Shown here piece after piece: positions 16,626 to 53,700 of a DNA stretch of 64,000 nt. The position numbers were made by a program, and so were the translations under genes. Origin of the DNA: Prosapia bicincta (taxonomy: Eukaryota > Arthropoda > Insecta > Hemiptera > Cercopidae); NCBI GenBank assembly GCA_036971475.1, contig JBAIZL010000001.1, positions 81,567,983 to 81,631,982 of the forward strand, written 5' to 3'. The notes below the pieces were generated by a model. The model was not told the DNA's origin. It ran no database searches and worked only from the letters and a program-made list of their open reading frames with translations. Every line of letters begins with the position of its first letter. Positions within the stretch are counted from its first letter, which is position 1.

Positions 16626-16650
16626 TTTTGTTTCTTCATTATTATAAAAC

Positions 16651-24830: not shown

Positions 24831-24839
24831 CAATTAAGA

Positions 24840-27600: not shown

Positions 27601-28225
27601 TATTCATTCTAAAAATTTCATTGCGTAACTGAGATTTTTCTAAGGAAAATCAGGTATGAATGCAACTTCATATTAAATATCAATAATGTTAGTCATTTTG
27701 AGTTATAGTTGTAAGTGATTAGCTTTTATTATGATCTGTCGTCCTCTTTAAAAAAGGATTTGTCAGATTTTGTTCCTGTGCGATATTTGCAAATGCACTA
27801 AAGGTGTTGATGCTATCTTTACCTCTGCTATGTCTTCAGATAATGTGTATCCACCATATAAAAATGTTGTGTAGTGGACTTGATCTGTGATGATCTACGT
27901 TCTATGGTTAAACTTTTTTCGTGTTTAAATTTTTTTCGTTGTGGTTGCAGTTGCTGTCTTTGTTGGCCTAGGTGTGATTGTAGTACCCTGTTTGTGTTAC
28001 TATGTTTGTGTTACCCTGTTACTTCCTGAGATACATGATTTCCTGTCTTACTTGACATTACTGACATATCTACTTGAAATTTGTATTCAATGAAAATATC
28101 AAACTTCCTTTATCTATTATTACCACTGCATCATGTATCTCATTTCCAAATGACAGTTCTCCACAATAATCTATTTTTTTACGACCACCAAATGCGAGAT
28201 ATCTATGTGGAAAGTTATTCGTTCT
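27600..28225 (-). pseudogene. Argonaute-2-like 5' coding fragment, unit 3 (internally deleted)
   Basis: Only ~620 bp against ~900 bp in neighbours; the GRGGD...LLPAPEG part is missing after 28000. The pre-N block and the HYDV-type N-domain start are recognisable near 27620-27900, and the FGNEI...D block near 28140. Many stops. Confidence 0.6.
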
Positions 28226-29125: not shown

Positions 29126-30010
29126 TATTCTAAAAGCTTTCATTGCAAATCTGAACTTTTTCTTGAGAAATTAAGGTTGAGTGTAACATCATATTAAATA
29201 ACAATAACGTTATCCTTTTTTATTTGTAAATATGAGTGATTAACTTCAATTATGATCTGTTGTTCTCTTTTTCCAGGGATTGGGCTGATTTTGTTCCTGT
29301 GCGGTATTTGCAAATGTGTTCCAGGTGTTGATGCTACCTTTACCGTTGCTATGTCTATAGATATTGGGACTCCACCAGATGAAACAGGTGTCTTGATTGG
29401 AGATGATCTACGTTCTATGGTTAAAGGTCCTCAAGTGTTTAAATTGTTTTCGTTGTGGTTGTAGTTTTTGTTTTTCTAGATGCGGTTGTAGTACCCTGTT
29501 CGTGTAGACGATGGTCCTACTTGCCCTTCTGGTCTGGAAGTATCTCTTTTTGGGAAGTTGAAATTCCTCCTTGTCCTAATGGTTTTCAATCTCTTCTCCC
29601 ATTACGATCGTTTGTTGGTACCCCAAATCTCGATGTGCACTGAATCCGCTCCCTCCTAAATCCATCAGTGCTTGTTCTACACCATCTTCAGCAGAAATGG
29701 ATGAAGGCTGTGTTGGTTTACCCCTACTTTGGCTCTATGATCTACCTTCAGCTGCCCCAGCATCAAGCTATATCCAATGCTTGAATTACTTCCTGATATA
29801 CAGGATATTCTGTCCTAATATACGTTGACAGGGCTGACATATCTACTTGAGACCCATATTCAATGCTAATATCAAACCCGTTGACTTTCTTCATTTTTAA
29901 TTACCACTGTATCACCTATAGCAATTCCAAATGACAGTTTTCGACATGAATATATTTTTTTACGACCATCAAATGCTGGATATCTATGTGGAAATTATTC
30001 ATTTTAAAAG
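29125..30010 (-). pseudogene. Argonaute-2-like 5' coding fragment, unit 5
   Basis: The best preserved N-domain remainder of the array: FDISIEYGSQVDMSALSTYI, then RTEYPVYQEVIQALDIA (29880-29760). 'IQALDIV' is a hallmark at the end of the Argonaute N domain. The linker EGQVGPSSTRTGYYN lies near 29540-29460. The pre-N block GPLTIERRSSPIKT and VPISIDIATVKVASTPGTHL lies near 29440-29300, with the DVTLN N-domain start near 29190. Confidence 0.7.
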
Positions 30011-30650
30011 CTTTAAATGCAAAATCTGAACTTTTTCTTGGGCAAATCAGGTTTAATGTGATATCAGAATGAATATCAATAGCACTATTTAATATCTTTA
30101 AATCACGCTATCTTTAAATAGTGTGTCAACACCTTACGAAACAAGTTGTGTAGTTGTCTTGATTGGTGATGGTCAACCTTTCATGGTTAAAGGCCCACTG
30201 ATTTAGTGGCTGTGGTTGTAGTTGTTGTTCTTGGTACGGTTGTAGTACCCTGTAGGTGTAGACGATGATCCTACTTGCTCTTATGGTGCAGTAAGTAACT
30301 CTTCTTGGAAACTTCTACCTGCTCCTCGTCCTCCTTGTTTTATACCCCTTCTCTTTTTTTGACCTAAAACGTGCCCTATAGCTGCTAAAGTAGATCTTCA
30401 AAATTACTTTGTGCACCAACTAAAACACCCTTCCCAATTAAATGCATATGTGACTGTGCTATATTATCTTCTGCAGAAAGGGATGGAGGCTGTATTGGTT
30501 TGCCTCTACAATTGGCCCTATTCTCTACCTTCAGCTGCCCCAACATCAAGCTATATCCAACTTTTTACTTACATCCTGAGATACAGGATTTCCTGTCCTA
30601 ATATACGTTGACAGAGCAGACATATCTACTTGATATCCATATGCGTAGAG
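30010..30650 (-). pseudogene. Argonaute-2-like 5' coding fragment, unit 6 (upstream end of array)
   Basis: The - strand sequence enters the array at about 30645 with YGYQVDMSALSTYIRTGNPV, then SQDV. This is in the middle of the N domain, so the unit is truncated at its 5' side. The linker (GAGRSFQEELLTAP) and pre-N part follow toward 30100, with an internal deletion near 30080. The sequence upstream of 30650 is unrelated. Confidence 0.65.
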
Positions 30651-31701
30651 ACGGGTGTACTTTATCCCCCCAATGAGAGAGCAGTATTCGTTACCCCCCC
30701 CCCCCCCCCAACACTCATGCCCAACCTCCAGTCGTTGATATGTTGATGGTAACATAGACATAGGTGGTAAGCACCGCCTAAAGATAGTGGAGGTGAATGA
30801 CGAGAAGGGATTTCTTGTTCTGATGGGGGTGATGACGTAGGTAAATGTTGTAAATAAAATAGGAATAAATTTGTATCGTTGGGATTTCATCTGTGAACTT
30901 TTGGCTTCATAGCGTGGAACGCTACGGACTGAGCTACAGCGTAGGTAGTTGTGTTGTAGTGTTGTATGCGGGTACAAGAAGGTCTTTGTCGTCCGGTGAT
31001 CTGACACATAGAGGGTTCACTATTAGAATCAGTTCGTTCAATTCATATAGTTGGTGCCGTGTGACGGTCAACAGGTAACCGTCATAGAGCTCTATGGTGT
31101 AAGACTGTTTTAAATTATAGGGCAGTTTTCTCTAGGGTCTATTCAGACCTTCAACCTCACTTTGGTTGTTGGTAATAGTCCAACAAGAGCACCGGATTTT
31201 TGCGAGAGCGTAGGAGGTTGACAACCTCCTGGCAAGGAAAGCTCTTTCAATCTTTTACAGTAGCAATTTCCCTAGTGGTGAGTGGGCGTTTAGACGATAA
31301 CGCAGATAGAAAAAAATGTCCACCTCTTTGTAATCATCCTTTCCCGTGTCGTGAGCTGCCCTAACACGCAGTAACGACATGAAGTTGGAGATTACAAGCC
31401 TTTGTACAATGGTTGCTTTACCGACGTCCATGATTCTAATGCAAAGGCATAAGATGTCATCACTTTTTATGTACTCTTTCCCCATCGCAGCGTAGAAGGT
31501 CTCGCAGCTGGTCCCCCACCACTGATGTATGTTGTGTATATTATTTTATTAATAATAAAAGAGAGAATTAGGTTTTTTTAGCTGACCAAAGGTGTAAAAT
31601 AATAATAATAGTAAACTGTGCATTTGAAAGGAAAACTTTATTATTGAATATATACTTAAAGCGTGAATATCTACTCTAAATTAAGAAATAGTCTGCAGTG
31701 C
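30651..31701. other. Spacer with C16 homopolymer; no gene recognised
   Basis: A run of about 16 C lies at 30694-30709. The rest has moderate GC and no recognisable domain. A 76-codon - strand frame at 31255-31485 has no motif or context that supports it. Confidence 0.35.
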
Positions 31702-32573
31702 CTATCTGCAGGCTTTACGAGAAACTCCATCTACGTCCAAGACCAGTCTTCCTAGTATACGTAGTACATCAGCCGATACGCTACGAGCAGCACTTGCACG
31801 TGCATTTCCCACAACTGTCTAAGAAAATTAATTAGAAATTAAATTCATTTATATTCCTTTGATATTACTACAATTATCACCGTCCAATAAAACTTACTAA
31901 ATATTGATGAGAATAAACAAAGGAAATACGGGCTTGCTCGATTTCTTGTATGTGCTTCAACTCCTCCTCTAATTCACCTGAATGTGAAGCTCGATCTCTG
32001 AGTCTACTTACAACGAGACTCAATGGTGCAGCCTATGAAATACAATTTATTAGTAATGGAAAATACGAAAATAACTGTAACAATTCATTAAGAATACAAT
32101 AACCACCGGTATTGGGTGGTCGCTTAGGCTAGGCTAGGTTAGGTTAGGTATTTGTATTACAGGCAGACTACACCTTTTACGGTCGATTTCGTTAGCATGA
32201 TTACTTAAATCTTCCTAAATACCCGTTTCATCGTAGCCAGAACCACCGTTATTCGTTGTGTCACTAGACTGAAAACCAATGCCAATAATGTCTTACCGAC
32301 ATGGCGTGTAATGCGAAATTTACAATTTTCCAACTCCGGAAGATCACATTCTTTCACTATAGCAGTATATTGTTTCGGACAAACGTCGACTTTTTTATAT
32401 CGTCATCATCGAAGCCCACTTGAATTGATAAACCGTGAACAGTTGTTACGAGCTTTGCACGATTAATACCTTATTCTTCATTCAACGCCAACGACTTTAA
32501 AGATACCAAAATTCGTTCGTAAACCGGAACCGCATTGAACCGCATGGAGAGCTTACTTGATGTACTCGCCATA
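31702..32573 (-). pseudogene. Unrecognised, apparently spliced gene divergent from polB
   Basis: A clean last exon (31702-31818: TVVGNARASAARSVSADVLR ... to TAG) is joined in phase 0 to a clean exon 31898-32032 (AAPLSLVVSRLRDRASHSGE, EELKHIQEIEQARISF). The - strand acceptors are TTTCTTAG and TTTCATAG, and the donor is TTTA/GTAAGT. Further upstream, coding-like pieces (DETGI ... EDLSNHANEIDRK; KECDLPELENCKFRITRHVG) lead to an ATG at 32571-32573 (MASTSSKLSMRFNAVPVYER), but with a stop and frame changes. I do not recognise the product. It starts ~125 bp from the polB start in the opposite direction, so a shared divergent promoter is likely and the gene may belong to the virus-like element. Confidence 0.4.
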
Positions 32574-32697
32574 ATTATACAAGAAAAAACGCAACACATC
32601 TAACTGTAAAGCACTGAATACCTATGCAAGGAGGTAAGTGTGATTGTTATCCTATCTCTGTTTCTAATCTTACTTGTTTTTAAAAAAACTTATATTA

Positions 32698-35396
32698 TGG
32701 ACACAGACTTCGAGAGTTGGTTTATTCTCTGACTAGGAGTACAACAGACGAAGATCGACTGGGTTTTATCATGATTACCATAAACGTCAAGAATTGTGGA
32801 CCTGGGTACGTAACCTTAAGACCTGCTTCGGAAATAACGTCAGACATTCTTTGTGGGATTTTTGGCGGAATAGTCCAGGGTAACGCTGAGGGTTTTATAT
32901 GAGGTGATACCTTTCAGGTATCGTGTACCAAGTTTAGAGTACCTGCGGGCCGAGGTCGAAGTAGACGTGGAATTTACAATAACTTTTATCTCAGTCTTGT
33001 GACAGCCTTGTGTAAGACACGACAGTCTTGTCACAAAACAAAAAAAGAATATAAAGCTATAATACAGGACAAATGTAATGTGCACAGCAACTAATGACTG
33101 ACGCTAGTGTAAAAATTACCTAGTCAGGTGCAAGTGGTAATGAGTTACAGGCGTTTCAAAATCATTTGACTGAATACATAATCACGGTGTACAGTTACGT
33201 TAGTGGAGGTAGACATGTATTTTTGAAGGTAATGTGAACAATCCCAAGTATAAAATAAACTTGCTATTTTACAAGTCCTATTTTAATGTTTAACTAGTTT
33301 AACTAGTGCGTTTCCGTGTAGTTTCTATTGTAAAGCATGTCAAACCCCGTACAACAATTTTGGAAAACAAAGATGTTCAGCTACCTATTATTCTTGTAAA
33401 CGATCTCCACTGTGTGTGCTAGATGACACACAGTATTCAATGCGTTGACTAACCTTTAATTTATAAACCAGCAATGTTACAACACACATTCCGAAAGCGT
33501 ATGCAAGTATATTAGAAAATGTCTAATGGGTGAAAAGGCGATTTTTACTCTATATCGTAAAACCCCTCATCAGTGTGGAGAAGTTTATTGTAAAAGGTGC
33601 TTGGAGTACAAGCCGGCTCACCATCGGTGTTAGATGAGAATCAATACCCAAAAACCTCGAGTTAATGATTTCATCTTTCTATTTTTTACCTGGAAACGCG
33701 TCAAGACGAAGTCCTTGATAGTGTTCACGTTTACAGGGTAAATATATGCATTTCTCAACAGTACTGTTGGAAATGTGTAAATGGCGAACATTGCCGTAAT
33801 TGCACACCACGAACTTTTGTTTATAAAGAGAGTTCAGTTGACGGGTTCATGGCCTACATAATGTATGTGCGTAAAACGTATAAAAAGGTCTGCGTTATCA
33901 CTCATAATGGACAGGCATTTGATTTCCAATTCCTTTTGAAATACGTTCTGGAAGAAACTCAGTTTACACCTGAATTGATAATGCCTGGAACTAGGATTAT
34001 TTTTATGGAGATCGATAACTTTATCGATTCTGTAAACTATATGCCAATGACAATATCTAAACTCCCTGAAGCTTTCGGCATACCTCCCGAAAAAAAGGGT
34101 TACTTTCCTCACCTTTTCAACACAGTGGCCAATGAAAATTATGTAGGTCCTATTCCTCCAAAGGAATACTACTGTCCTGATTCAATGTTTGAAAAAAATT
34201 ATACAAAATTCTTACAGTGGAAATTCTTACAATACAAAATTCCAACGAACATGTGTTCGATTTCGAAAAGGAAATGTTTGAATATTACCTCTCTCATGTT
34301 GGTATATTAGCTTTAGCTCAAGCCTGTATAACGTTTCGTGTTTCGTTCTTGAGGGAATGCAATGTAGATCCGTTTTTCGAGATCATCACTATCGCTAACG
34401 CGTGTAGCTTAGCGTTCAGAAGAAGTTTTCTCAAGCCACACACAATAGGCATACTACCAAAGAATGGGTACAGACTCGTTGATAATCAGTGCGCTATTGC
34501 TCTACAGTGATTCACATGGGTCGAAGACTAGAACGGCTTTCGACTGGAATATGCTGGTAGAGGTTTTGAAATTAAAGGAGATGGTATAAAGGTCCACGGA
34601 TTATGTAACCAAACGAAGACCGTATATGAATGTCAATGCTGTTACTGGCACGGACGTCTAAACTGTTACAAATTTGGACTTGATTTACCTCTAATCGACG
34701 ACCCGTCAGACACTCATAATGCTCGACTGATCAGGACTAAAGCTAAGACGGCTAAGTTGACCGTCATTATTGTGTTGTCGAGTTGTGGAAGTGTTAATTT
34801 TATAAGAATAAAAAAACAAACAAAACGATGGCATACCTTGATTTGCACCCTCTAATAAACCTCCCACCACTAAACCCTCGAGATGCATTTTCATGCGGTC
34901 GTATGGGGAACGTAAAATCGTACCACATCTGTCAGGATAACGAGAAAATTCGGTACTTTGATATTTGATATCCGATAGGACACCTTAAAATACACGTCGG
35001 TAATAATGAGTGTAGAGACGTAGGAATTTCTACTGATGGCCTCCTGAAATGTACAGGCTTACCTCCTCGTGATCTGTATCATCCAGTGCTGTCAGTGAGC
35101 AAGAGCAGTAAATTGATTTTCATCCTGTACCGTACATGTGGCGAGAAATAAAAGTCACCTGGTGACTGTACTCACTCTCTTGACGAACGGACATTGACAG
35201 AAACATGAACTATGGATGAGATATGCAAAGCTGTGCAGAAAAATTATCTTATACAGGAAATGTACGAGCTTTGGAAATACGAAATGGCTTCATTTGACAA
35301 AAGGAATGGAGTGTTTACCGACTATATTAACACATTTTTAAAAATAAAGCAGGAGTCTTGAGGTTACCCAGATTGGAGTCGTTCTGAACAAGAAAT
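32698..35396 (+). pseudogene. Type B DNA polymerase, decayed (copy 3)
   Basis: Homology to the polymerase at 40916-44162 runs through all three frames. N-terminal blocks are TLRPASEITSDILCGIFGGI, DTFQVSCTKFRVPAGRGR and IYNNF (32790-32990), then LMTDASVKI and ELQAFQNHL (33090-33200). Next come SCKRSPLCVL (33405) and a Cys-rich region. The exonuclease core (33849-34510) contains THNGQAFDFQFLLKY, which keeps the ExoII residues. YECQCCYWHG lies near 34625. The ExoI Asp is lost (YLETRQDE), polymerase motif A is deleted (frames jump from KIRYFDI to YPIGHLK near 34960), and everything after SEQE (35393), including motifs B and C, is gone. Protein-primed polymerases replicate linear viral genomes; this one is dead. 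Confidence 0.8.
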
Positions 35397-35404
35397 AATA
35401 ATCT

Positions 35405-35614
35405 ATGGCGAAAGCTATTTATACAACGATATGTGCCACAGTTTACCAAACGATTTGCATGCCAGTTTCAGGTATATGGACGGATATCTTTACTTTTTCA
35501 CTGCTGACAATCAGGTTTTTGTGAACAATAAATTTCTGGAAGCTGTGACGGCAATTGAGAAAGATATTTTCGATGTTTTGAAAATACGGTACATGAGGAC
35601 GAATAGACTCCGAG
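35405..35614 (+). pseudogene. Unknown element ORF, 5' part (split by the nested element)
   Basis: Reads NDMCHSLPNDLHAS, YLYFFTADNQVFVNN, LEAVTAIEKDIFDVLKIR, then the codons for RLRE at the insertion point. It matches 4030-4220 of copy 1. The rest of the frame (RDLYTTLKDIFYK) resumes at 45481, beyond the 9.86 kb insertion. Upstream it is fused to the truncated polB by a deletion. Function unknown; short repeated beta-like blades. Confidence 0.7.
35609..35614 (+). repeat. Target-site duplication, left copy (TCCGAG)
   Basis: TCCGAG immediately precedes the AGTAGTATC terminus, and the same hexamer follows the right terminus at 45475-45480. The uninterrupted homologue in copy 1 has a single TTCCGAGAG at this place (about 4210). 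Confidence 0.9.
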
Positions 35615-35999
35615 AGTAGTATCAGTCGTGACTTGAGCACAAACTACCCCTAAATGTCCTGTACGTCACCGCTGAGTATAGGGGTTGTTTTAGATTATGG
35701 AGGGGGTTGGTGTGGCCTTGATCGTAGCCTTTGGGGTGGGTTTGACTACGTTTAGCGGGGTAGTGGGTAGTTTTTGAAAAAAAAATAATCCAACCTAACC
35801 CGTCCTCTATGTGTGTTGTGTGGTAAGGGTGGTTCCTAGGTAAGTTTGGAATCTGCCCCTGGGGTTGCTCCGGGGGTGGATTCGGAGGTTGGGGGTAGTT
35901 TTTGGAAAACATTTTGGAAAAATGTGTGTTACGTGTTGGGGTGAGTATAGAGTGTATTTTGACTAGATGTGGGGGTGGGTTCACCTGGGGGTAGTTTTA
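35615..35999 (+). repeat. Left terminal inverted repeat
   Basis: Pairs with 45092-45474. Shared phrases include CTTGAGCACAAACTACCCCT, GTGTGGCCTTGATCGTAGCC, AACCTAACCCGTCCTCTATG and TGTGTTACGTGTTGGGGTGA. An open - strand frame here is not a gene. Confidence 0.9.
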
Positions 36000-36950
36000 C
36001 CCTTTAGTCACCCTTTAGTCGCGCTTGAAGTAAAGTCACCTAGGAGCCTGGCCTTAGGCAAAGCTACCTTGGAGCACGGTCTCAGGTAAAGCCATCCCGA
36101 AGCCGGCCCTTAAGTAAAGCCACCCTAGGAGAAATGCCTCAGGTAAATTCACAGTAGAGTCAGGCTATAAGTGGGGGGTTGTTTTTAATAATATATGAAA
36201 TTGCCAAAAAATGATCGGTTAGATCAAACGACCAACGTTCCCAGTAAACGCTATGTTTAACCGACCAACAATTGAGTTCAAATAGTCAACAGTCTGTGCG
36301 GGGAATCGACCTATCACATTGCAGGGGCTCGGTAGGCTTACGCAACACAACGCAAACGGTCGCAGTAAGGTGTGTAGGCCACTATGTTAAGCCAACATGC
36401 ATGATGGCCCTATATAGTGTGTTAAACAAATATGCATGTAAACATGCATACATACTATGCTAAGCCGACATACATGAATCCCTAAATGTGCCTACTATAA
36501 GGCCTACTATGTCGGTAAACCACTGGCCAAAGCCTTTATGATCTGAGCTATACACACATTTTCACCTCTTCTATCAGCTAGAGCCTCGGGCAGGCAACCG
36601 TATGGTTCATATGGGAAGTACTATATGGTATAGCTACCATACCAAAATAGCTATGTAGAAACCGTCAAGGCCATTATGATATGAGCTTTACACATATTGT
36701 CTAGGTATGTTGTATCAGTTACAGCGTCTCGACTAAGACAAATACCTCCATCTAATCTTAGGTAAAGCTACCTTGGAGGTAGGCCCTAGGTAAAGCTACC
36801 TTTAAGTCAGGCCGTAGGTAAGGCCAGCCTGGAGTAGAGCCTTAGGCAAAGTCATGCCTGAGGCCAGGCATCAGGCCTCGGGTAAAGCCTCTCTGGAATC
36901 AAACCTTAGGTAAACCTACCTTGGAGTCAGCCCTTATCAATAGCTACAGC
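36000..36950. repeat. Sub-terminal ~28 bp minisatellite and mixed terminal sequence (left)
   Basis: 36010-36165 and 36740-36935 consist of degenerate ~28 bp units of the type GGTAAAGCCACCTTGGAGTCAG, matching in inverse 44630-44960. Between them, 36180-36320 matches the inverse of 45030-45090 in part and also the 20430-20640 block. The order of sub-blocks differs between the two ends. Confidence 0.75.
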
Positions 36951-37960
36951 TACGTAAAGGCAGCTACTATTGCATACACAATCACAATAGCTACGTAAAG
37001 ACAGCTACCAAAGCATACCCTATCACAATAGTATACATCCTGTATTAATCTATTATGTATGTTACCCCAACATCCTGTATCAAGCCAATAACCATATAAA
37101 CCTACATTCCTGCTGTATTATGCCAATATGTACGTTACCCTACATATGCCTACATACTGCGTTAAGAAAATATGGATGTTAACCTACATTAACTCCTGAA
37201 ATAAGACGATATGCGTTACCCTACATAGGCCTACATACTATGTTAAGAAAATATGCATGTTAACCCATATACATCCTGTATTAGGCCAATGTGCATGATA
37301 CCCTACATTCCTCCTGTATTAAGCCAATATGCACGTAAAGCTACATACAATACATACTGTGCTAAGCTAATAAGCATGGATACCTACATTCTTTCTGTAT
37401 TAATTCAATATGTATGTTACCCTACATAGGCCTACATACTGTATTAAGCAAATATGCATGTACACCTAAATAGGCCTACATCCTCTATTAAGCCGATATG
37501 CATGTTGTCCTACAAAAGGCGACAAAATGTGTTAACCAGGTATGCTTGTAAACCTACATAGGCCTACACCCTGTATTAAGCCAAGATGCACGTTACCCTA
37601 CATACATCCTGTAATAAGTATATATGGATGTTAACCTACATAGTCCTACTTATTGTGTTAAGTCAATATGCTTGTAAATCTACACACATCCTGTATTAAG
37701 CCAATATGCATGATACGGTACATAGGCCTACATATTGTGTTAAGTCAATATGTAGTGTTGTTATAATAATACACTTGAGCCGATATCCATGTTGTCCTAC
37801 AAAAGCCTAAAAAATGTGTTAACTCGTTATGAATGTAAACCTACATAGGCCTACACCCTGTATTAAGCCAATATGCACGTTACCTTACATAGGCCTACAC
37901 CTTGTATTAAGCCAATATGCATGATACGGTACATTATCCTACAGAATGTGTTAAGTCAAT
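36950..37960. repeat. Sub-terminal satellite, ~45-60 bp units (left)
   Basis: Some twenty degenerate units of the form CCTACATAGGCCTACATAC, TGTGTTAAGCCAATATGCAT, GTTACC. Only about two inverse units exist at the right end (44480-44580), so the left array has expanded. The unit contains palindromic TAGGCCTA and ATGCAT. Confidence 0.85.
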
Positions 37961-38435
37961 ATGCAATGTTGTTATTATTATACGTTTCAATAAAAGTGTA
38001 GGTAAGTTCATACAGACAGAGTTCGACAAATAAATGCTTGTTTAAAACCTTTACAGTAATATTGTTATTCGCCCGACCGCGATAGCGCACTCTGAATATA
38101 TCAGCATAACCGCAGCAAATAACGTCAAACAAAATGTCAGTCAAGATGTCGTCTAACAAAATGTCAGACGGCATATGTAATATCGGTAGCTCATCTGTAT
38201 AGGATTAACTGTTGCCTGTATAGGTTTGCCACCTATACTTACTTTACACTAGTCCATCTATCACAGAAAGAAGAAACCGGCCTCTTGCTGAGCATAAGGG
38301 CGGGTGTATACAAATCTGAACGAGTTCAACATGCCTCTGTCCCTGTGGTAACCCCTATCAGCCTTGACGGAATCAACCCCTACACAGAGAACAATATAAG
38401 TACGGGCAACACAGACCTAGTCCTCAGACAACACC
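37961..38435. other. Region between left repeats and IAP-like gene
   Basis: Contains short repeats (CAAAATGTCAGTCAAGATGT / CAAAATGTCAGACGGC, 38129-38170). An 89-codon frame from 38285 runs into the BIR coding frame region without recognisable motifs. It may hold the IAP promoter and leader. Confidence 0.35.
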
Positions 38436-38989
38436 ATGGTAGGTGTTTACTACTGGACAGATACTCTCACAATCGAGAAAAAAGCGTTCCCCAAACTATC
38501 ACTGTATCGTCGCAGATTACGCTCGTTTCGTACTTGGAAAGGAGTGTCAAATGATACTGTCAACCTCATGCGTCTCAGTGAAGCGGGTTTCTTTTACACC
38601 GGCCAAGAAGGTCAAACATTGTGTTTTACATGCGCAGGAGGCCTTGAAGATTGGTCATCGAATGATGATCCGTTACAGGAACATGCAAAGTGGTTTCCTA
38701 AATGTAAATACGTAGTGGGTGTACTTACACTAAACGGTGTGCTAAACGGACACAGATGGGGGTAGACATCTGTAAAACAGACGATGAAGACTACTCGGAC
38801 GATGATGGTGTAAACATTCAATCTCAGGATGATCGTACGCTGTGTAAGATTTGCTGTATCGATGAAATACAGGTTACCCTTCTACTATGCGGACATGTGT
38901 TTGCCTGTCAGGGGTGTGCCTTAAACCTTCAAGAGTGTAGCATGTATAGAGTACAGACATCCGCTACGATAAGAGTATATCTATCGTAG
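38436..38989 (+). pseudogene. IAP-like protein, BIR + RING, frameshifted
   Basis: The first frame (38436-38765) holds a single BIR: RLRSFRTWKGVS, LSEAGFFYTGQ, LCFTCAGGLEDW, DDPLQEHAKWFPKC. The zinc ligands C-x2-C, H and C are all present. The second frame (38756-38989) has an acidic linker, then a RING: CKICCIDEIQ, LLCGHVFACQGC. The last C-x2-C pair is damaged (CSMY). The two frames meet at a GGGGG run near 38758, so one base change or slippage separates BIR from RING. IAPs bind caspases through the BIR and ubiquitinate through the RING; DNA viruses use them to keep infected insect cells alive. A related remnant lies at 22208-22453. Confidence 0.85.
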
Positions 38990-39369
38990 CTAAGCCTAAT
39001 ACAATGTAAATAATATTATGTGATCAATAAAACGATTTTTTACGATACATGTGTTTGTACTTATTGTTGAAAAAAAACGAAACTCCTTTAATAAAACAAA
39101 CAATAACGGTAGATCAACATGGGATAGCGCATAAGGTAATAAGTAATGGCAGTATCTATAGACGTATATATACATTATTAATATGTGAACAATAAACATA
39201 ATTAAACATTCAATGTTACATTTCTTAAATCTAGTTACAAATACTCTGCTATTGCATTATATCCAATACAACGACAATTTTACAAAAGCTATATAACTGA
39301 TGGGAATTCGTCTATCCCAAGACAAATTAATAGAAATTTAGGTAGTTTATATAATATTTCTGTATCATC
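38990..39369. other. Convergent 3' spacer
   Basis: AT-rich gap between the + strand IAP-like gene and the - strand unknown gene. AATAAA occurs on the + strand at 39026-39031, a likely polyadenylation signal for the former. No other feature seen. Confidence 0.45.
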
Positions 39370-40164
39370 CTATAAAATAGACTTCACAAGTTTAACACTA
39401 TCTCTTAATATTAGACATTTTTCTGTAAACTGTAAAAATTCTCTATATCTGGCGTAATTTCGTCTGTGAGCTAAATTTAATTTATAAAGGTCCAATATAT
39501 ATTCATAGATACATGTAAACTCATATCCCCGGTCTAATGCCATTTTTAGTGTTGTAATTCTAAAACAATATAAACTGTTGTTAAAAGCTAATAAAAATTG
39601 ATTAGGACAAAACACACTCATGGTGATGTCATAATGATAATCCCTTGATAACCAAAAGGTATGGCCTTCTATGTATAACATATGCTCACTAGAAAAGATT
39701 ACATCCAAAAATATTTTTTTTATATTCTTTTCTTACCTTATAGGCAAATTTCTTAAAAGTCTGAACAGTTTTCTCAAACACATACAAAGGATTATAAGTA
39801 TAAAATATATTTAAATATGTAAATATACTAATGAAATCCTCATCTAAATAGCTTATAATCTTGTCGCTAATTAGTGGGTTGGTGAAGCATTCAACTGATG
39901 CCATGGCGTGTTTGAAAAGTAACACAAAGGTTATTGAAATAATTTTATCTAAATTTTGTTCACATAAATATCCCTCGAAGGGGTAAAGGAGAGGCCCAAA
40001 CCCCGCCATTTCCTCGTGACATCCAACTGAAAAAAACAAAATAATGCCTCCGTATATGAATGACTCTCCTGCTTGACAAGTACATTCACCTTACGGACCT
40101 TTACGGCCGCTCCAGAGGGGAAGCATATTCCTTGCGAACTGGTTAGAGCCACGCCAGTGGGCAT
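39370..40164 (-). pseudogene. Unknown gene of the nested element, frameshifted
   Basis: Two - strand frames join in sense across a short overlap at 39689-39708, within an A/T run. Upstream: PFEGYLCEQNLDKIISI, KHAMASVECFTNPLISDKII, YNPLYVFEKTVQTFKKFAYK. Downstream: SSEHMLYIEGHTFWLSRDYH, YRITTLKMAL-type helix, NYARYREFLQF. An earlier ATG at 40162-40164 opens a third frame that overlaps the start. The protein would be about 200-250 residues, with many aromatic and hydrophobic residues. I recognise no family. It is convergent to IAP and in line with polB. Confidence 0.4.
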
Positions 40165-40204
40165 TCATCCTTCACATTCATACTACCCGTCAAGCAGGAG
40201 GGTC
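40063..40204. repeat. Inverted repeat ~20 bp arms, 142 bp span
   Basis: GACTCTCCTGCTTGAC near 40063 and GTCAAGCAGGAGGGTCT near 40188-40204 are inverted. It could be a small hairpin insertion overlapping the 5' end of the unknown gene. Confidence 0.45.
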
Positions 40205-40289
40205 TAAAAATTGCATTTCGAAAACATTTGTGTGAAAAATCAACATTCGCTAGTACATAGCTATTCAATTTGTTCTCTAATTCGTGGAA

Positions 40290-40950
40290 TTTTGTAGCCA
40301 TAAAGTAGTAATCATTGTGCAGAAATACATTTTTTTAAATTTTTTTATAATTTTTATTATTTTTCTGTTATTCTGAATATTTATAGAAAACAATACAGTA
40401 CATAGCTAATCATTATGATCACCCAACCGTGGTTTTATTGTAACCATAAGGTAGTAATCATTGTGCATAATTAATACTTATTTATATTTTTTATAATATT
40501 TATATATGTATTTATATATATAATCTAGCATTTGTTAAGCTGAATATTTATAGAAAACAATACAATACATACCTAATCATAATTTTCACCCAACCGTGGC
40601 TTTATTGTAACCATAAGGTGGTAATCACTGTACAGAATTAATACTTATTAATATTTTTTATAACATTTATATATGTATTTATATATATATAATCTAGAAT
40701 TTGTTAGGCTGAATATTTATAGAAAACAATACAATACATAGCTAATCATAATGTTCACCCAACCGTGGCTTTATTGTAACCATAAGGTGGTAATCACTGT
40801 ACAGAATTAATACTTATTAATATTTTTTATAATATTTATTTATGTATTTATATATAATCTAGCATTTGTTAAGCTGAATATTTATAGAATACAATACAGT
40901 ACATAGCTATTGATTTTATTCGCTCATGCGAGGACGTTTGTAACCATAAG
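40290..40950 (-). repeat. Tandem repeat derived from the 3' tail of polB
   Basis: The anchor GTAACCATAAGG (or GTAGCCATAAAG) recurs at 40294, 40440, 40607, 40776 and 40940, spaced 146-169 bp. The last one is inside the polB C-terminal codons (ILPYGYKRP). Each unit also carries CACCCAACCGTGG and TTTATAGAAAACAATACA. So the final coding codons plus 3' flank have been copied about four times downstream of the gene. Confidence 0.8.
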
Positions 40951-43900
40951 GCAGTATGTCGTACCCATCGTCGTCCAATTTCCTCTTTGCACCTGTTAAC
41001 CTGAATATTTTATTTTCAGACATCGTGATGACGTTACGATCTTTTGTGTGACGAATCCTATCACTAGTGGCTACGATAGGATCATTACCGTCCAAAACCA
41101 TTCGTTTCATTGACTCAAAATTGACCGAGGCGGAAGTACTGAGATTCAGGGTCAAAACTTTGACTTTGCACACGGTCATGTGTTCGTTTTTATTTGTAGA
41201 CCAGACTTTGTAGGCGTAGACTTTAGGACCTCCTGAGACGAATTCGGTGATATAAGACCCGGGACCGTATTCTAAGAGCTCGGCAGTTATTTGGCCTAAA
41301 TAATCTCCGGTCACGACTCTTGGCAAGGCCTCCCTATGAAGGTATACTACGCTGTCGGTATCCTTGTAGATACGTTGAGGGCCTAGAGCGTCCATATATT
41401 CGTACAACTTTAGCCGGTCATGGGCGGTAATGTAGACGGCCAGCACAACGTTGTTAGTGGGTAGTATTTCGCAAACGTCATCTGAAAACTGCCAATTCAC
41501 TACCAAAACATCCTCGTTCACTTCCTGAATGTTATTCATATCAATAGACGGGCTTTGCAACATTTTAAACAATTCCTGAGGCTGCCTAATAATCGACGTT
41601 TTCGATTGATTCTCCCTTTGCCCGAATTTTCCCCAAAACGAGTTCAACATCAATTTGGCCAACGAGCGGCATCCTTCGTTTTTAGCGATCTTTGACTGGT
41701 CTAAACGGACACCCTCGTTGATGATATAATCTTCTACGTACTTGGCCTTGTACTCTTCGGTCCGACACCAGCCGGGGTAACCTGACGCCTCCTGTTTCAT
41801 CTTTAGAAATTTATTAATAAACTCTTTAAACAGCCCATCGTTCCCTGAAGCCATCTCGTACTGCCACATTTCGTGCATTTCCACAATGACATAGCCCTTC
41901 TCTACCGCCTTACGTATCTCGTCCATGGTCCATGTGCCTGTCAGAGCACGCTCGTCCACCGTATGGCCGCATTCGTCAGGATTCAGAGTTTCGTCGCATG
42001 TCCGACAGAGTACAAACATCAACCTCGTATACATCTTTAGCGGCAATACAGGGTGGTAGAGCGCTGTGGGCGGTAGAATTGTGCACATGAGCAACCCTTC
42101 GGCGCTCATCCCCAATTCCCTACACTAGTCGTTACCGACGGCCAACATAGGGTGTCCAATCGGGTATTTTCCGTACTTGCATACCCAAGGGTAGAGCGAA
42201 CACACGCCGGCGTACTGGATTGTTTCAACCTCTTTAGCAGCGCAGTAGGTCTTTATATTTCCCGTCCTGTCGCCGAAAAAAGCGTCACGGGGGTTAAGGG
42301 GCGCCGTGTTGAGGATGGGGTGGTTTTCGAGTCAATCTAAAGACTTGTCGATTTTCTTCGGCTGTCTAAATACACACTCCCACATCTCGACGACCTCGTA
42401 GCCGGCCCGTAAGAGTTTACCTTTTTAGCTTTTGTCCTTTCGAAACGGGCGTTGTGCGTGTCCGCCGGATCATCCTCCAGGGCAGCGTCACGTCCGTTGG
42501 GGAAGCACTTGGGTTTGTCTCCATGCACAGTCCATCGACCTTTAGACCGTCGACTTTCATCTCGTGACCGTTACCAGCATGACTTATTCGCAGGTTGCCT
42601 TCTGTTTCGAGCCACAGCAACCATTGCAGAGCGATAAACGATTGTTTATCGGCCAGACGGTAGCCGGCTTTCGGAACTATGAGTATGGTGTTTGGTTTCA
42701 GAAAGTTTCTTCTAAACGCCAAGTTACAGGCGCTAGCGATGGTCACTGCCTCTAGAAACGGATCAACATTACACTCTTGTAGGAAACAGGTCCTGAATTT
42801 CAAGCACGCCTGTGCCAAGATCTCCACGTCCGATAGGCAGTATTCGAATATATATATTTGAAAGTCAAACACGTACTCGTTGCGCACCTGGTCGTCATAC
42901 CATCGTGAAAACTCTTCGTGATTCTTGTCAAACATAGAATCGGGGCAGTAGTACTCTTTGGAGGGGATAGGACCCACATACGTTTCATTGGCCATCGTGT
43001 TGAAGAGGTGCGGAAAATATCCCTTTTTCTTTTCCGGAGGCAGATCGAAGGCTTTAGGCAGTTTAGACAGAGCCATAGGCATGTAGTTGAGAGAGTCGAT
43101 GAATTTTGTGTTATCAATCTCCATGACGATGACCTTGGTGCCTCGCGTAATCTGGTCAGGTGTAAATTGGGTCTCTTCTATTATGTACTTTAGGATAAAC
43201 TGGAAATCGAAGGCCTGGCCGTTGTGAGCGATTACTATCACTTTTTTGTACGCCTTTCGCACTTCCATAAGGTACGCCATGAACTTGTTGACGGGGTCCT
43301 CTCTGAACACTCGAGTTCTATCAGTGCACTGTAGGCACGCGCCGCCGTTCATACACTTCCAACAATATTGCTGGGATACGCACAAGTTGACTCGATGCAC
43401 TCGAATGTCGTTAATAACTTCGTCTTGTCGAGTTTCAAGATCAAACAAGACGAACAGAAAGTTATTTGCTAGCGGGAGACGAGTATCAATTCTCATGTAG
43501 CACAGATGGCCTACTGGCATGTAATGCTTACACACTTTACAATAGCCCTCGCCGCAAACGTGAGGAGCTTTTCTATTCTTCTTTAGAATGTATCTATCAC
43601 AGTCTGGACACTTTCTTATAGCCCAGCATACGCTTTTGATGTGCGCCTTAAAACAAGCTCTATTTTGAAATTGTCTATTGCAGTCGCCGCACAGGATGCC
43701 GTCGTCTTCAAGCACACACGGCGGGGACCTCTTGCAAGAGTTGCATAAGTGGTTGGTATGATATAACAAATTTAGCTTGTGCTTTGGGTTCTGAACGTCG
43801 CCCTCAAAGTAAATATCACGACCTCTGCTACCGTAATTGTAAACGGTGATTTTATAATAGTAGAGATAATCTTGAAACTGTTGCAATTCTCGAATCCCGG

Positions 43901-44162
43901 CACCACCATCTCCTATCTGCACCCCGGCGTCCGTCATTAGTTGTTTTGTTCTGTTGATTTGACGATTGCATCTGTCCATACTCATAGGCTTATACTCGGG
44001 GTCTCTTAATGCATGCTCGATAGCTACAACCAGAGAACAAGGCAAACAGAAAGCGTCTGTATTTTTTATCGTAACAATACCCTTTCTACGGTGCGATTTT
44101 TCGTTGAAATTATTATACAGTCCGGGTAGTGTTTCTCCATAGACCTTTATATCTAAACGCAT
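40916..44162 (-). pseudogene. Protein-primed-type DNA polymerase B of nested element
   Basis: The N-terminal frame (44162-42417, 581 codons) has GLYNNFNEKS, NTDAFCLPCSLVVAIEHAL, a Cys/His cluster (residues ~140-215) and all three 3'-5' exonuclease motifs: D241-L-E243, N314-GQAF-D319 and YCLSD (441-445). The C-terminal frame (42115-40916, 399 codons) has motif B KLMLNSFWGKFG (154-165) and motif C YKDTDSVV (250-257). Between them (42417-42116) coding continues in shifted frames with a stop. Motif A there reads GVCSLYP: the invariant catalytic Asp (normally DxxSLYP) is Gly (codon GGC at 42206-42208). The ~90 N-terminal residues present in copy 3 are missing. This enzyme would copy the linear element genome, but this copy is inactive. 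Confidence 0.9.
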
Positions 44163-44459
44163 TTACAGGTATAGAATATATCCATAAAAGCTATTTGTTT
44201 ATTTAAACTGATTTCTGATTATAAATGTATGCCGTGGTATGAACATCGTATATAGTAAACTGATATGATACAATAATAAAAACAACAACAATCGCCTAGA
44301 TTCGTTGTGAAACAGCTGTGCGGGTTTTATGCCTGCTATAGTGGTCACCTACAGTGATTGCGGTTTTAAGATAATGTGTTATCTCTGCAGGTTTGCACAT
44401 GTCGAGGACATGGTCCTCGGTTATTTACAGCTTTGTAGGCCAGGCGTATTCCCTCAAGC
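44163..44459. other. Upstream region of polB / inner edge of right terminal region
   Basis: Non-coding; probably holds the polB promoter (- strand). No clear TATA/initiator pair stands out. Confidence 0.35.
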
Positions 44460-45091
44460 GATAATGCCTTGTTGAACCAATTATTTACCTATGTAGGTTT
44501 ACTTGCATAATGACTTAACACAGTATGTAGGCCTATGTACAGTAACGGACATGTTGGCATAATACAGGATGTATACTATTGAGATTGGGGGTACATTGAT
44601 AGCTAACCACTCCTGGGCGTCTTTACCTATTGCCCGACTCAGGGGTTGCATTACCTAAGGTCTGATTCCAGAGAGGCTTTACCAGAGACCTGGCCTCAGG
44701 TCTACCAGGTGGATTAACCTAAGGCCTGACTTCGGAGTGGCTATACCTAATGTCCGGCTCCAAAGAGGAATTAAATAAGGCCTGACTCTAGTGTGAATTC
44801 ACCTAAGGCCTTTCTCCAGGGTGGCTATACTTAAGGGCTGGCTTCGGCATGGCTTTACCTGAGGCCCTGCTCCAAGGTAGCTTTAACTAAGGCCTGGCTC
44901 CTAGGTGACTTTACCTCGAGCACGACTCCTGGGTGACTTTTACCTAGGACTCCGATCATTTTTTGACAATCTGAACACTAGCCCTGGGAACCCACCCCCA
45001 CATCTATCCAACACTTACTCTAAATATACCCCACACAGTTGTTTAGTCATTTGATCCAACCGATCGATTTTTGACAGTTTCATTTATTATT
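44460..45091. repeat. Sub-terminal repeats (right)
   Basis: 44480-44580 has one to two inverse units of the left satellite (GTAGGCCTATGTA, GGCATAATACAGGATG). 44630-44960 is the inverse of the ~28 bp minisatellite (CTAAGGCCTGACTCC-type units). Confidence 0.75.
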
Positions 45092-45474
45092 TAAAACTAC
45101 CCCCTGGCGAACCCACCCCCACATCTAGCCAAAATACACTATACTCACCCCAACACGTAACACACATTTATCCAAAAGTTTTTCCAAAAACTACCCCCAA
45201 CCCCCGAATCCACTCCCGGAGCAACCCCCGGGGCAGCTCCCAAACTTAGCTAGGAACCACCCCTACCACACAACACACATAGAGGACGGGTTAGGTTAGA
45301 TTACATTTATTTCCAAACACTACCCCTACCATTCTAAACGTAGTCAAACCCACTCCAAAGGCTACGATCAAGGCCACACCAGCCCCCTCCATCATCCAAA
45401 ACTATCCCTATACTCACCGGTGACGTACAGGACAGTTAGGGGTAGTTTGTGCTCAAGTGACGACAGATACTACT
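45092..45474 (-). repeat. Right terminal inverted repeat
   Basis: Reverse complement of 35615-35999 with about 10% divergence; ends GATACTACT at 45474. Confidence 0.9.
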
Positions 45475-45480
45475 TCCGAG
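45475..45480 (+). repeat. Target-site duplication, right copy (TCCGAG)
   Basis: Identical to 35609-35614, immediately after the right terminus. The interrupted frame of the host copy resumes from here. Confidence 0.9.
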
Positions 45481-45545
45481 ATTTATATACAACATTGAAA
45501 GATATCTTTTATAAGTACGCGCGAGAATGACTGACATGAATAAAT
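45481..45545 (+). pseudogene. Unknown element ORF, 3' part (split by nested element)
   Basis: Codes DLYTTLKDIFYKYARE, matching ELYTILKDIFYK at 4219-4254 in copy 1, and completes the ORF interrupted at 35614. Confidence 0.7.
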
Positions 45546-45551
45546 AATAGA

Positions 45552-45975
45552 ATGGGTGCCAAACGGAAAACACCTGTTAGTCGTAAACGTGGTGTCATAA
45601 ACACAGGATGTGGACTAGTGTCTGGTGTTTTGAATACAGCCATCGATTTACTTCCAGTCGAACTACACGTACTTTCGTTCATCCTTGCGGATCGAAAACA
45701 AAATTGAAGACACAGTTGGCACGCGGTTATAAAGGTATAATCCATTGGACGAGGAATGTAAACACGATATCGCCTACAGCAACGACAGTGATTCAGATAA
45801 GAAACGCATTGCTGACGGAATTTTAGCGGGAAAAGCTTGGATCAAAGTCAAAGCGGGTGGCGCATTATTCGGTGAACTCGCTGCTGCTTTGGCCGTAACG
45901 GCCGCAATGAAGGCTAAGACCACATTTGGTGGGGGTAAAAGACGTCTTCGTCCACGAGAGCGTACCGTTCAATAG
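45552..45975 (+). pseudogene. Parvovirus-VP1-like phospholipase A2 domain protein (copy 3)
   Basis: The ATG at 45552 gives a basic leader (AKRKTPVSRKRG) and then SGVLNTAIDLLPVELHV. After a frameshift the calcium loop is damaged (CGSKTKL instead of the CGPGTKL seen at 4430), but the catalytic His-Asp and context are kept (KHDIAYSNDSDSDKK). Downstream are ADGILAGKAWIKVKAGGALF, an Ala-rich helix (ELAAALAVTAAMKAK), and a basic RRLRPRERTVQ end. The N-terminal basic patch may be a nuclear signal. In this element class the protein is presumably a virion component aiding membrane passage. Frame damage makes it a pseudogene. Confidence 0.75.
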
Positions 45976-46077
45976 CTGTTGAAACGACTGCAAAACAAAG
46001 GGCTTTACTTGAAACTGTACCACAAACAAGGCTGCGGGAAGAATAAAAGGTGCACGAAAAAACCCATTAGATTGTAT

Positions 46078-46440: not shown

Positions 46441-46489
46441 AGATAACACACTTTTTTGTCTTGTGACTTTTTCCCACCAATTGATTTTT

Positions 46490-47110
46490 CAAAAGCGAGA
46501 AGGATATAGCATTTATCGATCTGGTAACATACAACTCGATACCTAACGTCGTTACAGATGTAAACAATCTTTTTCATTACGGTGATGATAAAAATATTCA
46601 CACAATTTTAGTGCCAACCGGATCGTACGAAATTACAGATATTGAGAGGTATATTTAAAAAAACTAGTTCCTGGTACATTTTTAATATTGAGACCAAATT
46701 ATAACACACTCAAAGTGGAAATAAAATGTTCGCATGCAATCTTTTTCGACAAGGCCATGTCTATAGGCCTACTGATGGGGTTCAGTAAGAACAACATTAG
46801 AGGCAAATCATAAACACTCTTCTGACCTGCCTGATTATATCATCAAGATTAATGGGATTAGCGTGGACTGCAATATAGTTGCAGGATCGTTTCAAAACGG
46901 CACAAAATACTATACTTTGCACGATTTTTATCCACAGGCACCGCCTGGTTATAAAGTTGTAGAAGTCCCTCGGACTGTAATATATTTACCTGTCAACTTA
47001 AGCGTCATTCATAATATCACTGAAAGTCTAAGAGATCAAAACGGCGGTATAATTGATTTTCGTGGAGAAAACATTTCCATAAGATTGCATTTACGTAGAC
47101 GCCAAGAAGG
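46490..47110 (+). pseudogene. Penton-like virion protein (copy 3)
   Basis: Blocks in shifted frames: DIAFIDLVTYNSIPNVVTDV, PTGSYEITDIERYI, NTLKVEIKCSHAIFFDKAMS, then (46863-47110) DCNIVAGSFQNGTKYY, PPGYKVVEVPRTVIYLPVN, DFRGENISIRLHLRR. It follows the protease directly, as in copy 1. The beta-rich pattern and position suit a minor capsid or related virion protein; the exact role is inferred. Confidence 0.6.
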
Positions 47111-47374
47111 GTCTAATATTTAACGAGCGCTTCTATAAGAAGTGCACCAGTTTACGTCCGACGACGACACAGTTGACACTGCGAAACTTTAGGTTTCCCA
47201 GATCTTTGGAAGCGAATGCTTTAGAGTTTGATAGCTGCAATGTACCGGATGTAAAATTGTACCTCAACTCTCAGTACTTTCCCAACGATAATACTCTCGG
47301 CGATAATGCCATTTTGTATGACATGTTGAAACTGCCAAAAAACCGTCTCAAAGTAAAAGATTGCGGCTAGCCCA
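47110..47374 (+). pseudogene. Capsid-like protein segment (5' part before insertion)
   Basis: Frame: AKKGLIFNERFYKK, SLRPTTTQ, then (47173-47370) LRNFRFPRSLEANALEFDSC, NVPDVKLYLNSQYFPND, AILYDM. The 'C..V..VKLYLNSQY.P' block is, from memory, in the virion protein family that accompanies these insect elements, probably the hexon-like major capsid. The frame stops at 47368-47370. The continuation is at 49395. The N-terminal half of the expected capsid is absent. Confidence 0.5.
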
Positions 47375-50073: not shown

Positions 50074-50702
50074 AATGGAATTAATTAATATATACGATGC
50101 CGCTCGTAAACCAACGCATCAGCTAACTGCTTTATAATGAGCACAACTAGGGTCGTACATCACTGAGTGTCTAGCCACGGACGAGTTCGTGTCCAGTACT
50201 CTCCCCGAGGCAGACAAGTTGTACGAGGAAGTTGTTTGGTACAAGAAACATGCAAGCAGTAGTTGAGATTCATGCCTTCGTCGACAACGAAGGTAAATAC
50301 GTTGTCTGGCTGTGGTTGCCGAACATTACCAAAGTGTTACCATTTTTAAACCGCTTTACAAATTTCACAAGTTAAATGAGTTATCGCAAAAATCTGATCG
50401 TTGGTTACAGTCACGCTACCTTCGAATTAGTTGGTATGAAGGTAGCATACCTTTTGGCTAAGACATGATGCGAAACATATTAACGCCGTTTACCACTCGA
50501 TTCAAAAAAGGCTTGGAAAAGGCTCAATATTTGAGACAGTTTCATTCACATATCTGGATCTACCTGTAAAATAACCGCCTAGCAACAACAACAACCGTAC
50601 TTACTTCAAGTGCATACTGCCACAACACAACAGTTACGTAGATTGCAAATGTGCACTCCGCAGTGCAAGATATTATTACGATTTGCTTATCGCTTAGTAT
50701 TA
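50074..50702 (+). pseudogene. Unknown element ORF (copy 3)
   Basis: The ATG at 50074 gives MELINIYDAARKPTHQL, then in shifted frames GSYITECLATDEF, EADKLYEEVVWYKKHAS, EIHAFVDNEGKYVV, AVVAEHYQSVTIFKPLYKFH, LSQKSDRWLQSRYLRISWYE, ILTPFTTRFKKGLEKAQYLR, FHSHI, NNNNRTYFKCILPQHNSYVD and CKCALRSARYYYDLL. It looks like a single ~200-residue protein that accompanies the element; copies lie at 56821-57340 and (end only) 21445-21580. I do not know its function. Confidence 0.5.
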
Positions 50703-53700
50703 GAGTGTAAAATAGCATTAAAGTCACTGGCGTTAGGGTAACTCCTCGTAATCCTCCAAGAAAATGTTTTAAAGGTCCCTGTCACAGGGTAACTCCCTAT
50801 AAACCTTTTGAGCTTCAAAAATATTTAAAAATGTGATGGTCACTGGAGAGGGTTAACACCCCCTAAACCTCAAGAAAAATGCTTTTAAAGTCCCTGCCAC
50901 GGGGTAGTTCCCTGTAAACTTTTAAAGCACAAACAACGCTATGCCTTTGAAGGTCCCTGGTGTAGGCCAGTCTTCCTGAACCTTCTTAGCTGTTTGCTTT
51001 TATTTTCAAGTTGGGAACTGCATTTTCTCATGGCGTGGCAATTACAGAAAATGGCGGTAGTTGCAGCCATTTTCATTCGGGTAATCGACCTTGAAGTTCG
51101 GGAAGAGCACCCTATTTGAAGTCGATTGCCCGACATTAATTGGGGACTGCATTTTGTGGAATGTGGCAGTCACTGGTAAATAGTGTCGGTTGAAGCTATT
51201 TCCAAACTTTTATTGTGGGCTTAATGATGACGGTTTCAATCCCGATTAATTGAAACGTAGATTATTAATCCTGTTTTTAATCTCAGGATTAATTGTATGA
51301 TTATCTTACAATTGAGAACCTAATTTTTCTGTAATTGTAAGAATTTGGGACCACCTGAGTTTAAAATGGAAAATTAATCTAGCACACATCCTAGGACAAT
51401 ATGCACAAGAATTTTTTTTTTTATTTTACACGGAAAGTTCTTGTTTTATCAATTTAAAGTTGGGTAAAATATTCAGTGTGGTGTAGTAAGTTGTGCAACC
51501 TCTGCCGAGTGATCTCACATTATCTCTATTCATAACTTAACATATGTAAATATTCGAAAAACAACGTTTTGGCTTAATTTTTATGGATTTTGCCTACGAA
51601 TTTAAATATACTTTTAAAGTCTCCAGTTAAGATAGATTTGATTGTAATTTTATACTTTACTATATACCTATAAAGTGTCTAGTCAGGATAGATTTGGTAG
51701 TAATTTTATGGTTCTGTGTATAAAATTACAACCCAATCTATCCTGACTGCATAGTTCATAGGTATATTTCAATATAGATAGGCTATATCAAATTAACCTT
51801 CCCTGCCCAATGTTCAGCAAGGTAAAATTGTTCAGAAAAACAAAATTCGCCGATCGGAGCGGTAGTCGCTGATCTTAATAATTACCATTTACGTGGGCTA
51901 GTAGGTAAAAAATGCTTTTAAACACTTATACAACGATCATACCAACATGTATAATACACCGACAAACATAACCTGCTTCACATACTGTTGTTAAAAATGT
52001 CGGCCTTCACGCTATGTTGCCGGATTTTAGCACTACGGCCTTCTACAATAGTTGCCCATGCTTAATGCGTTCGAAAATGAAAGTTATTAATTTGGTTAAT
52101 GTTTTGCATATTGTCATTGACAATACTTTCCAGGAGGTTAGACATTTTATTAAAAATTATTAATTTTACGCTGGAACTTCAATATTCATTGTTTCGCCAT
52201 TTTTTATTGACAAAAAAATAGACGAACTTTATTAGATGCAATTTAGAAGTGTATAAGTATGATATTATCTGAAACAGTTTTCAAAAGAAAAACGACTCTT
52301 ACGGTTTCTTCTAATGAAACATACTCTGCCTGTATATATTCAACAGTATTTTATTGGTCAGTGTAATAAATATATAATATAATAAAATAATAAGAATATC
52401 ACTTGTGACTAATGCACCTGTGATTTATGTGCTTGTGCATTTAGTTTGTATTCTTCTATAAGTTCGAAGTACTATTCTTGCAGTAATAATTTCCTATTAA
52501 TTTCAACTGGATTAAAGTTTTAATTATTTGAGTATTATTTAGGTAGGTAACTGTGTGTTTGTTTTAGTTAAACAAAACATATTAGAAGTCAGTCTACTGA
52601 TCCATTGTTTTTAAGATCGTTTCAGATTGATGTAATAGCAATTTGGTATCACACAAGTCCATGTATAATTTTTCTAATTTTCCAAACTAATTGTAGTTAA
52701 ATTAAATGTTGCTTAAAACTCAGTGAAATACAAATTTAAATGATTTGTAGGATCTCTAAAAGTGATAGGATGATTATTAAGGAGTCCTGTTTGGTAAAAT
52801 CAAAATTAAATCACAGATTTCATATAGTAGGTGTACTATAAATTTTGGTAATTATTAAGATCAGTGACACCTCTCCGATCGGCAAAATTTTTTTTCCTGA
52901 TCAATTTGACCCAGTTGAATAGAATCTAAAGTTTTTTTTTATTGCAAACAGATATTTACATAAAAAAATAGCCCAATCCAACCTGACCTAACTTTGGTGC
53001 TTACTAACGCTCCAATCGGCGATTTTCCTGATAGATTTGACCTTGCTGAACACGAATGTGAAGTTATTTTTAACGGCAAACACATATTAACGTAAGAAAA
53101 CCAGGTCAGATTTTATTAAATGTGTTTGCAGTTTAAAAAAAACTTCAGATTTGTGTTCAACAAGGTCAAATTGATCAGGAAAAAAAATTCTACTGATAGG
53201 AGCGGTAGTCACTCATCTCAATAATTACTAAAATTTTAGAGCAATAAACTGTAAAAGTATAGTCTTAATGGCGTTGGGTTTTTAAAAAATTTTAATTTTT
53301 TAATTAGTTGTTTTAATGTGTAGAACAGGAATATCAACTTTTTTCCCGGAAGATAAGGAAAGTTACTTTTTTCTACATTTTAAATGTCAGTGTGTAATGA
53401 CTTGTAGGTTTATAGCGTAAACGAGTCTTATTGACATTGTTAAAAAAAAAAATAATTTGTAATTACTCGTTTAATGTGTTGAACACGAATAACAACCTCT
53501 TTCCGCAAAAAATTCAAAAAGTTAATTTTTTCACATTTTTAATGTTTGTTATGGCATGTATAAATTGCACAGCAGCTACAGCACACTCCACTACGTCAAA
53601 GTCAATTTATTTGAATACTAAACTTCAAATCTAAATATTTAACTGTTGGTTATAATTTTATACAACATTGCTATATACCTTCATTAAAATATACCTATGA

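Follow-up and report, generated by a model that had tools for sequence, protein, structure and literature searches.

The analysed stretch, 64,000 nucleotides of the genome of the spittlebug Prosapia bicincta (contig JBAIZL010000001.1; hereafter the window), contains a 9860-bp insertion at window positions 35615-45474. In all probability this is an element derived from a Polinton/Maverick, which entered what was left of a related Polinton through a staggered cut of 6 bp. This reading is based on the exact ends of the element, its terminal inverted repeats (TIRs), a target-site duplication (TSD), a paralogue with an empty site, a sister polymerase on the interrupted side, and the stronger decay of that interrupted polymerase. 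A first-pass annotation had already proposed a Polinton-like element nested in an older relative, and on both points the proposal holds: ends, TIRs, 6-bp TSD and family-B polymerase are of the expected kind, and the two polymerases are sisters.

The boundaries can be read directly from the sequence. The element starts at 35615 with AGTAGTATC and finishes at 45474 with GATACTACT, giving ends of the form AGTAGT...ACTACT. The features that define the insertion are as follows.

35609-35614 (no strand): left copy of the target-site duplication, TCCGAG, present as a single copy in the paralogue
45475-45480 (no strand): right copy of the target-site duplication, TCCGAG, read from the sequence
35427-35614, continuing at 45481 (plus strand): small open reading frame (ORF) of the older element, broken by the insertion
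about 4032-5776 (plus strand): paralogue from the older family, a fragment in which the insertion site is unoccupied, found by sequence alignment

The TCCGAG hexamers were claimed at the outset to flank the element, and they do so to the base; the probability that two random hexamers of the window are equal is 5.5e-4. A 26-bp terminal pattern, allowed up to three mismatches, matches only the two ends of the element (no match in 100 shuffles). The state before insertion was approached through the paralogous fragment, each flank being aligned on its own with some 45 bp of the element next to it: TCCGAG occurs once in the paralogue, where the alignment of the left flank stops at the TSD and that of the right flank begins with it. 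In keeping with this, the ORF of the paralogue (4021-4251) follows the left flank as far as roughly the point of insertion and then, in its final 14 codons, corresponds to 45474-45515. The uninterrupted homologue thus shows a single hexamer at which the flanks meet, as proposed, but it is a paralogue (76-84% identical) and not an allele, so that it stands in for the pre-insertion state without being it. The finding of a 6-bp TSD refers to this one insertion. What could not be upheld is the suggestion that a base-exact definition of such an element is rare: among vertebrate Mavericks, 628 sequences are described with (AG)3//(CT)3 or (AGT)2//(ACT)2 ends and perfect 6-bp TSDs (PMC8097293), and exact ends of this sort are routine.

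Inside the TSD the element is bounded by inverted repeats in two segments.

35615-35999 (plus strand): outer TIR, left arm, starting with the element's first letters
45092-45474 (minus strand): outer TIR, right arm, ending with the element's last letters
36006-36165 (plus strand): left arm of the inner TIR segment, containing subrepeats of 28 bp
44780-44938 (minus strand): inner TIR segment, right arm

The outer arms (35615-35999 against 45474-45092) are 90.9% identical over 386 alignment columns (E 1.5e-150). The TIR length of about 385 bp first given is therefore correct for the outer arm but is only a lower bound: a 160-bp inner segment (36006-36165 against 44938-44780), 88% identical and separated by a spacer that is longer on the right side, adds to the TIRs. 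Neither self-comparison of the window nor the terminal-pattern search revealed a further TIR copy within the 64 kb. At 37 of 383 sites the outer arms carry different letters (Kimura two-parameter distance, K2P, 0.103). This difference means that neither arm is a folded copy of the other, which bears on the idea that the arrangement is an artefact of assembly, that is, a false inversion or a chimeric join. The window is indeed rich in repeats and has long duplications; nevertheless, given the divergent arms, the exact TSD and the continuous paralogue, an artefact is hardly credible.

Evidence for the identity of the element, and for its relationship to the sequence that it interrupts, comes from two polymerases.

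40916-44162 (minus strand): the nested element's family-B DNA polymerase, spread over three frames and interrupted by two in-frame stops, from PF03175 and tblastn of relatives
32708-35421 (plus strand): polymerase remnant of the older element, with stops and frame changes, PF03175 on 33849-34310

The nested polymerase matches PF03175 twice (E 7.5e-19 and 3.5e-14) and has a 34-residue gap relative to its relatives; the older remnant is without the C-terminal part of its relatives. A database search returned 605 hits, and among the 120 listed Macrosteles quadrilineatus ranked top, with Homalodisca, then cerambycid and other beetles, also present. Macrosteles belongs to the Hemiptera (Cicadellidae), so that the polymerases by themselves already point to a host that is probably hemipteran. 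These relatives we take to be Polinton polymerases. In a tree of 40 rows (38 selected from the 120 listed and the two ORFs of the window, all rows being kept) the nested and older polymerases are sisters with an ultrafast bootstrap (UFBoot) of 97, the older fragment being short and on a long branch, and the pair joins leafhopper-type sequences with a support of 100. The two have in common 64% of 209 aligned residues. In-frame stops number 7 in 580 codons of the older polymerase and 2 in 1073 codons of the nested one (Fisher p 0.011), a count that omits block 33082-33717 (11 stops), which spans a frame change. The older polymerase is thus the more decayed of the two, in agreement with the order of nesting.

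The older element extends across the insertion. Further remnants of its family are found at the following positions.

45552-46047 (plus strand): PLA2-like remnant of the older element, matching the PF08398-bearing part of Macrosteles gene model P0009
46485-47367 (plus strand): capsid-like remnants of the older element
20897-21421 (plus strand): capsid-like, the third fragment that belongs to the older family, from self-comparison of the window

PF08398 is recognized in P0009 (E 6e-13), and the window ORF 45733-45972 by itself gives no Pfam match. For the capsid-like region, 47083-47367 weakly matches PF21738, a double jelly-roll domain, with an E of 2.8e-4 that falls short of the curated cutoff. 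Pfam gives nothing for 46485-47120; its recurrence in three copies of the older family is part of the reason for regarding it as putatively capsid-like. Both flanks of the insertion form one decayed plus-strand element comprising polymerase, small ORF, PLA2-like and capsid-like remnants. The ORF that the first-pass annotation saw interrupted is indeed broken by the insertion and continues beyond it, but it belongs to a remnant in decay, in which the polymerase that precedes it is truncated. From the stronger decay of this target we infer that it was already dead when the insertion occurred.

Several observations weigh against a Polinton origin of the nested element. Polintons are typically 15-25 kb and carry polymerase and integrase (PMC6431247); this length is a typical and not a defining value, and 9860 bp falls below it. 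Integrase, protease, ATPase and capsid were not found in the nested element by Pfam scans, which were of limited sensitivity. They comprised six-frame scans plus single scans of 16 ORFs out of the 42 that reach 55 amino acids, and the six-frame scans of long frames are insensitive: one missed a 68-bit piece of polymerase and another missed the piece at 33849-34310. By these weak scans no rve integrase was detected, either in six frames or among the 16 of 42 ORFs scanned singly. The Homalodisca model P0018 has a degenerate rve-like tail (PF00665 E 0.047), and tblastn with this tail gave no match outside the polymerase intervals, 32600-35480 and 40900-44200, within which matches were masked. Lastly, from the TIR divergence (K2P 0.103) one would expect some 8.1 stops in the nested polymerase, against two found (Poisson p for two or fewer 0.013). 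Stop count and TIR divergence disagree, and so the arms are not simply usable as an age clock; a date of insertion calculated from the K2P was rejected for the same reason, the low number of polymerase stops. The arms may have been unequal already at insertion, or the polymerase may have been under selection for part of the time.

That no rve integrase was detected would also fit a non-Polinton TIR element, or a bidnavirus-like integrant, with a captured Polinton polymerase. Bidnaviruses do join TIRs to a Polinton-derived polymerase (PMC4061559), a likeness to the present element; unlike them, this element is integrated between 6-bp duplications, and the Pfam scans, within their limited sensitivity, reported no parvovirus-like gene, neither a capsid nor an SF3 helicase. 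In addition, (AGT)2//(ACT)2 ends with a 6-bp TSD are a Maverick type of end (PMC8097293), and the insertion target belongs to a sister Polinton lineage. Capture of a polymerase by an unrelated element is consequently improbable, and a Polinton derivation remains the preferred reading.

Two histories of such a Polinton derivative can be distinguished, and they turn in part on the other contents of the element.

36948-37970 (no strand): minisatellite region whose repeat units range from 38 to 201 bp, with the 44-bp unit running longest
40366-40909 (no strand): 169-bp tandem repeat, 3.3 copies
39373-40334 (minus strand): ORFs without assignment at 40146-40334, 39692-40090 and 39373-39732, possibly one broken gene

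The ORFs within 39373-40334 have no Pfam match above cutoff, and ORF 39692-40090 has no homologue at E 0.01. The element may have been non-autonomous before it inserted, consisting of TIRs, polymerase and the gene for an inhibitor-of-apoptosis (IAP)-like protein described below, and have been moved by the integrase of another Polinton. This history, which we regard as quite possible if a little short of probable, fits the fact that integrase and virion genes are undetected while the TIRs and the polymerase region are largely kept; stops fewer than the TIR divergence predicts likewise fit little neutral decay since insertion. A single copy, however, cannot separate deletion before insertion from deletion after it, no second TIR copy is present in the window, and the gene scans are insensitive. 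Alternatively, a full-length Polinton inserted and subsequently lost its integrase and virion genes through internal deletion and minisatellite turnover. The interrupted element of the sister lineage has PLA2-like and capsid-like remnants, and the stretch from the polymerase to the left TIR contains large minisatellites, as this second history would have it; yet remnants of integrase or virion genes were not found inside the element, and the polymerase has decayed less than the TIR divergence predicts. We consider loss after insertion, too, a serious candidate that does not quite reach the probable.

Under a Polinton derivation, integration would have been the work of a retrovirus-like (rve) integrase, which either came from a gene that this copy once had and no longer has, or acted in trans. 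Polinton polymerases are protein-primed, and the element's own polymerase would have copied it from the TIR ends by protein priming. The nested copy is by now a fossil in which the reading frames of both the polymerase and the IAP gene are disrupted. The first-pass description of the element as intact applies to its termini and no further, the polymerase being frameshifted and stopped and the integrase and virion genes not being found by the insensitive scans. Of vertebrate Maverick loci, 96% are described as eroded (PMC8097293).

The least expected feature of the element, and one on which the first-pass annotation is silent, is a gene with BIR and RING domains, of which a second relic lies elsewhere in the window.

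38421-38762 (plus strand): ORF with a BIR domain, first part of the IAP-like gene, PF00653 E 1.1e-20
38708-38986 (plus strand, other frame): ORF with a RING domain, second part of the IAP-like gene, PF13920 E 1.8e-7
22136-22449 (plus strand): another relic of this IAP type, with leader and beginning of the BIR at 22136-22231 and RING at 22300-22449

The BIR and RING ORFs match inhibitor-of-apoptosis proteins in solved structures, and the order – BIR followed by a C-terminal RING – is that of IAP proteins, though split over two frames. Alignments to IAP RINGs show that the last cysteine of the final C-x-x-C reads Y; with its two frames and this replaced cysteine, the present IAP-like copy is broken. 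Two IAP relatives (P0121 and P0122, of 302 and 309 amino acids) were the only matches among seven candidates. The second relic resembles the nested gene both in the leader (59% over 32 amino acids) and in the RING (53% over 51 amino acids). The leader is common to both relics, and the two IAP relatives do not align with it. The second relic lies about 0.7 kb from the capsid-like fragment at 20897-21421, on the same strand. This suggests that the nested and the older lineages both carried an IAP, the 22-kb relic being assigned to its element by position only. A BIR-RING IAP of this kind could have served to delay apoptosis of the host cell during replication. Plausible, though rather less likely than not, is the broader proposal of a hemipteran Polinton lineage with a stable, dedicated BIR-RING IAP gene, in which integrase-less elements of polymerase plus IAP may have spread in trans as cheaters.

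Searches of other collections added little. No polymerase-related locus was found in viral contigs, GTDB contigs or phage records, and the exact TIR patterns had no match in viral and prokaryote collections; being viral and prokaryotic, these are little informative for an insect element. IAP P0122 had no related locus in viral contigs.

Other repeats were recorded in the window. Direct repeats of 1321 bp, 99.3% identical, occupy 12111-13431 and 18833-20153, and minus-strand ORFs for an integrase core and for reverse transcriptase (RT)/RNase H within 12111-20153 give this segment the look of a young Gypsy-type long terminal repeat (LTR) retrotransposon. At 9691-11808 an RT ORF is followed by a GIY-YIG match below cutoff, a make-up that we take to be that of a Penelope-like element. 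An array of diverged direct repeats, 72-84% identical, spans 24079-30696; a weak match to ArgoN (E 0.0033, below cutoff), from a long-frame scan of the minus strand over 20652-35613, falls inside it. Finally, 50185-54421 and 56822-60810 form a direct duplication of about 4 kb in pieces, approximately 94-95% identical, with inner inverted repeats.

Compared with known systems, the element resembles Polintons/Mavericks in its (AGT)2//(ACT)2 ends, long TIRs, 6-bp TSD and a family-B polymerase of the Macrosteles/Homalodisca clade. It differs in its 9.86 kb, in that integrase, protease, ATPase and capsid were not found, and in carrying a BIR-RING IAP-like gene. Adintoviruses associated with mammals mostly have homologues of anti-apoptotic genes and/or candidate oncogenes (PMC11071296), whereas the present element is of insect type and its gene is a BIR-RING IAP; the main text of that paper has neither of the terms 'IAP' and 'apoptosis'. 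A BIR domain in a mobile element is likewise described for the giant Gypsy-like Burro elements of planarians (PMC6431247), but there it is part of an LTR retrotransposon polyprotein, and here the carrier is a polymerase-bearing TIR element. Among the papers listed, titles and opening lines of abstracts yielded no precedent for a Polinton with an IAP, which is not a claim of absence from print. The element belongs to a known kind, either as a defective member or as a derivative, and its cargo gene is unusual.

Nesting as such is ordinary in a repeat-rich genome. With exact ends, TSD and an empty-site paralogue available for an insect Polinton lineage near the leafhopper copies, a genome-wide search for relatives becomes straightforward. 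Two occurrences of the IAP-like gene suggest that Polintons of animals acquired inhibitors of apoptosis, as large DNA viruses did: such an acquisition would fit the life of an infecting virus better than that of a plain transposon.

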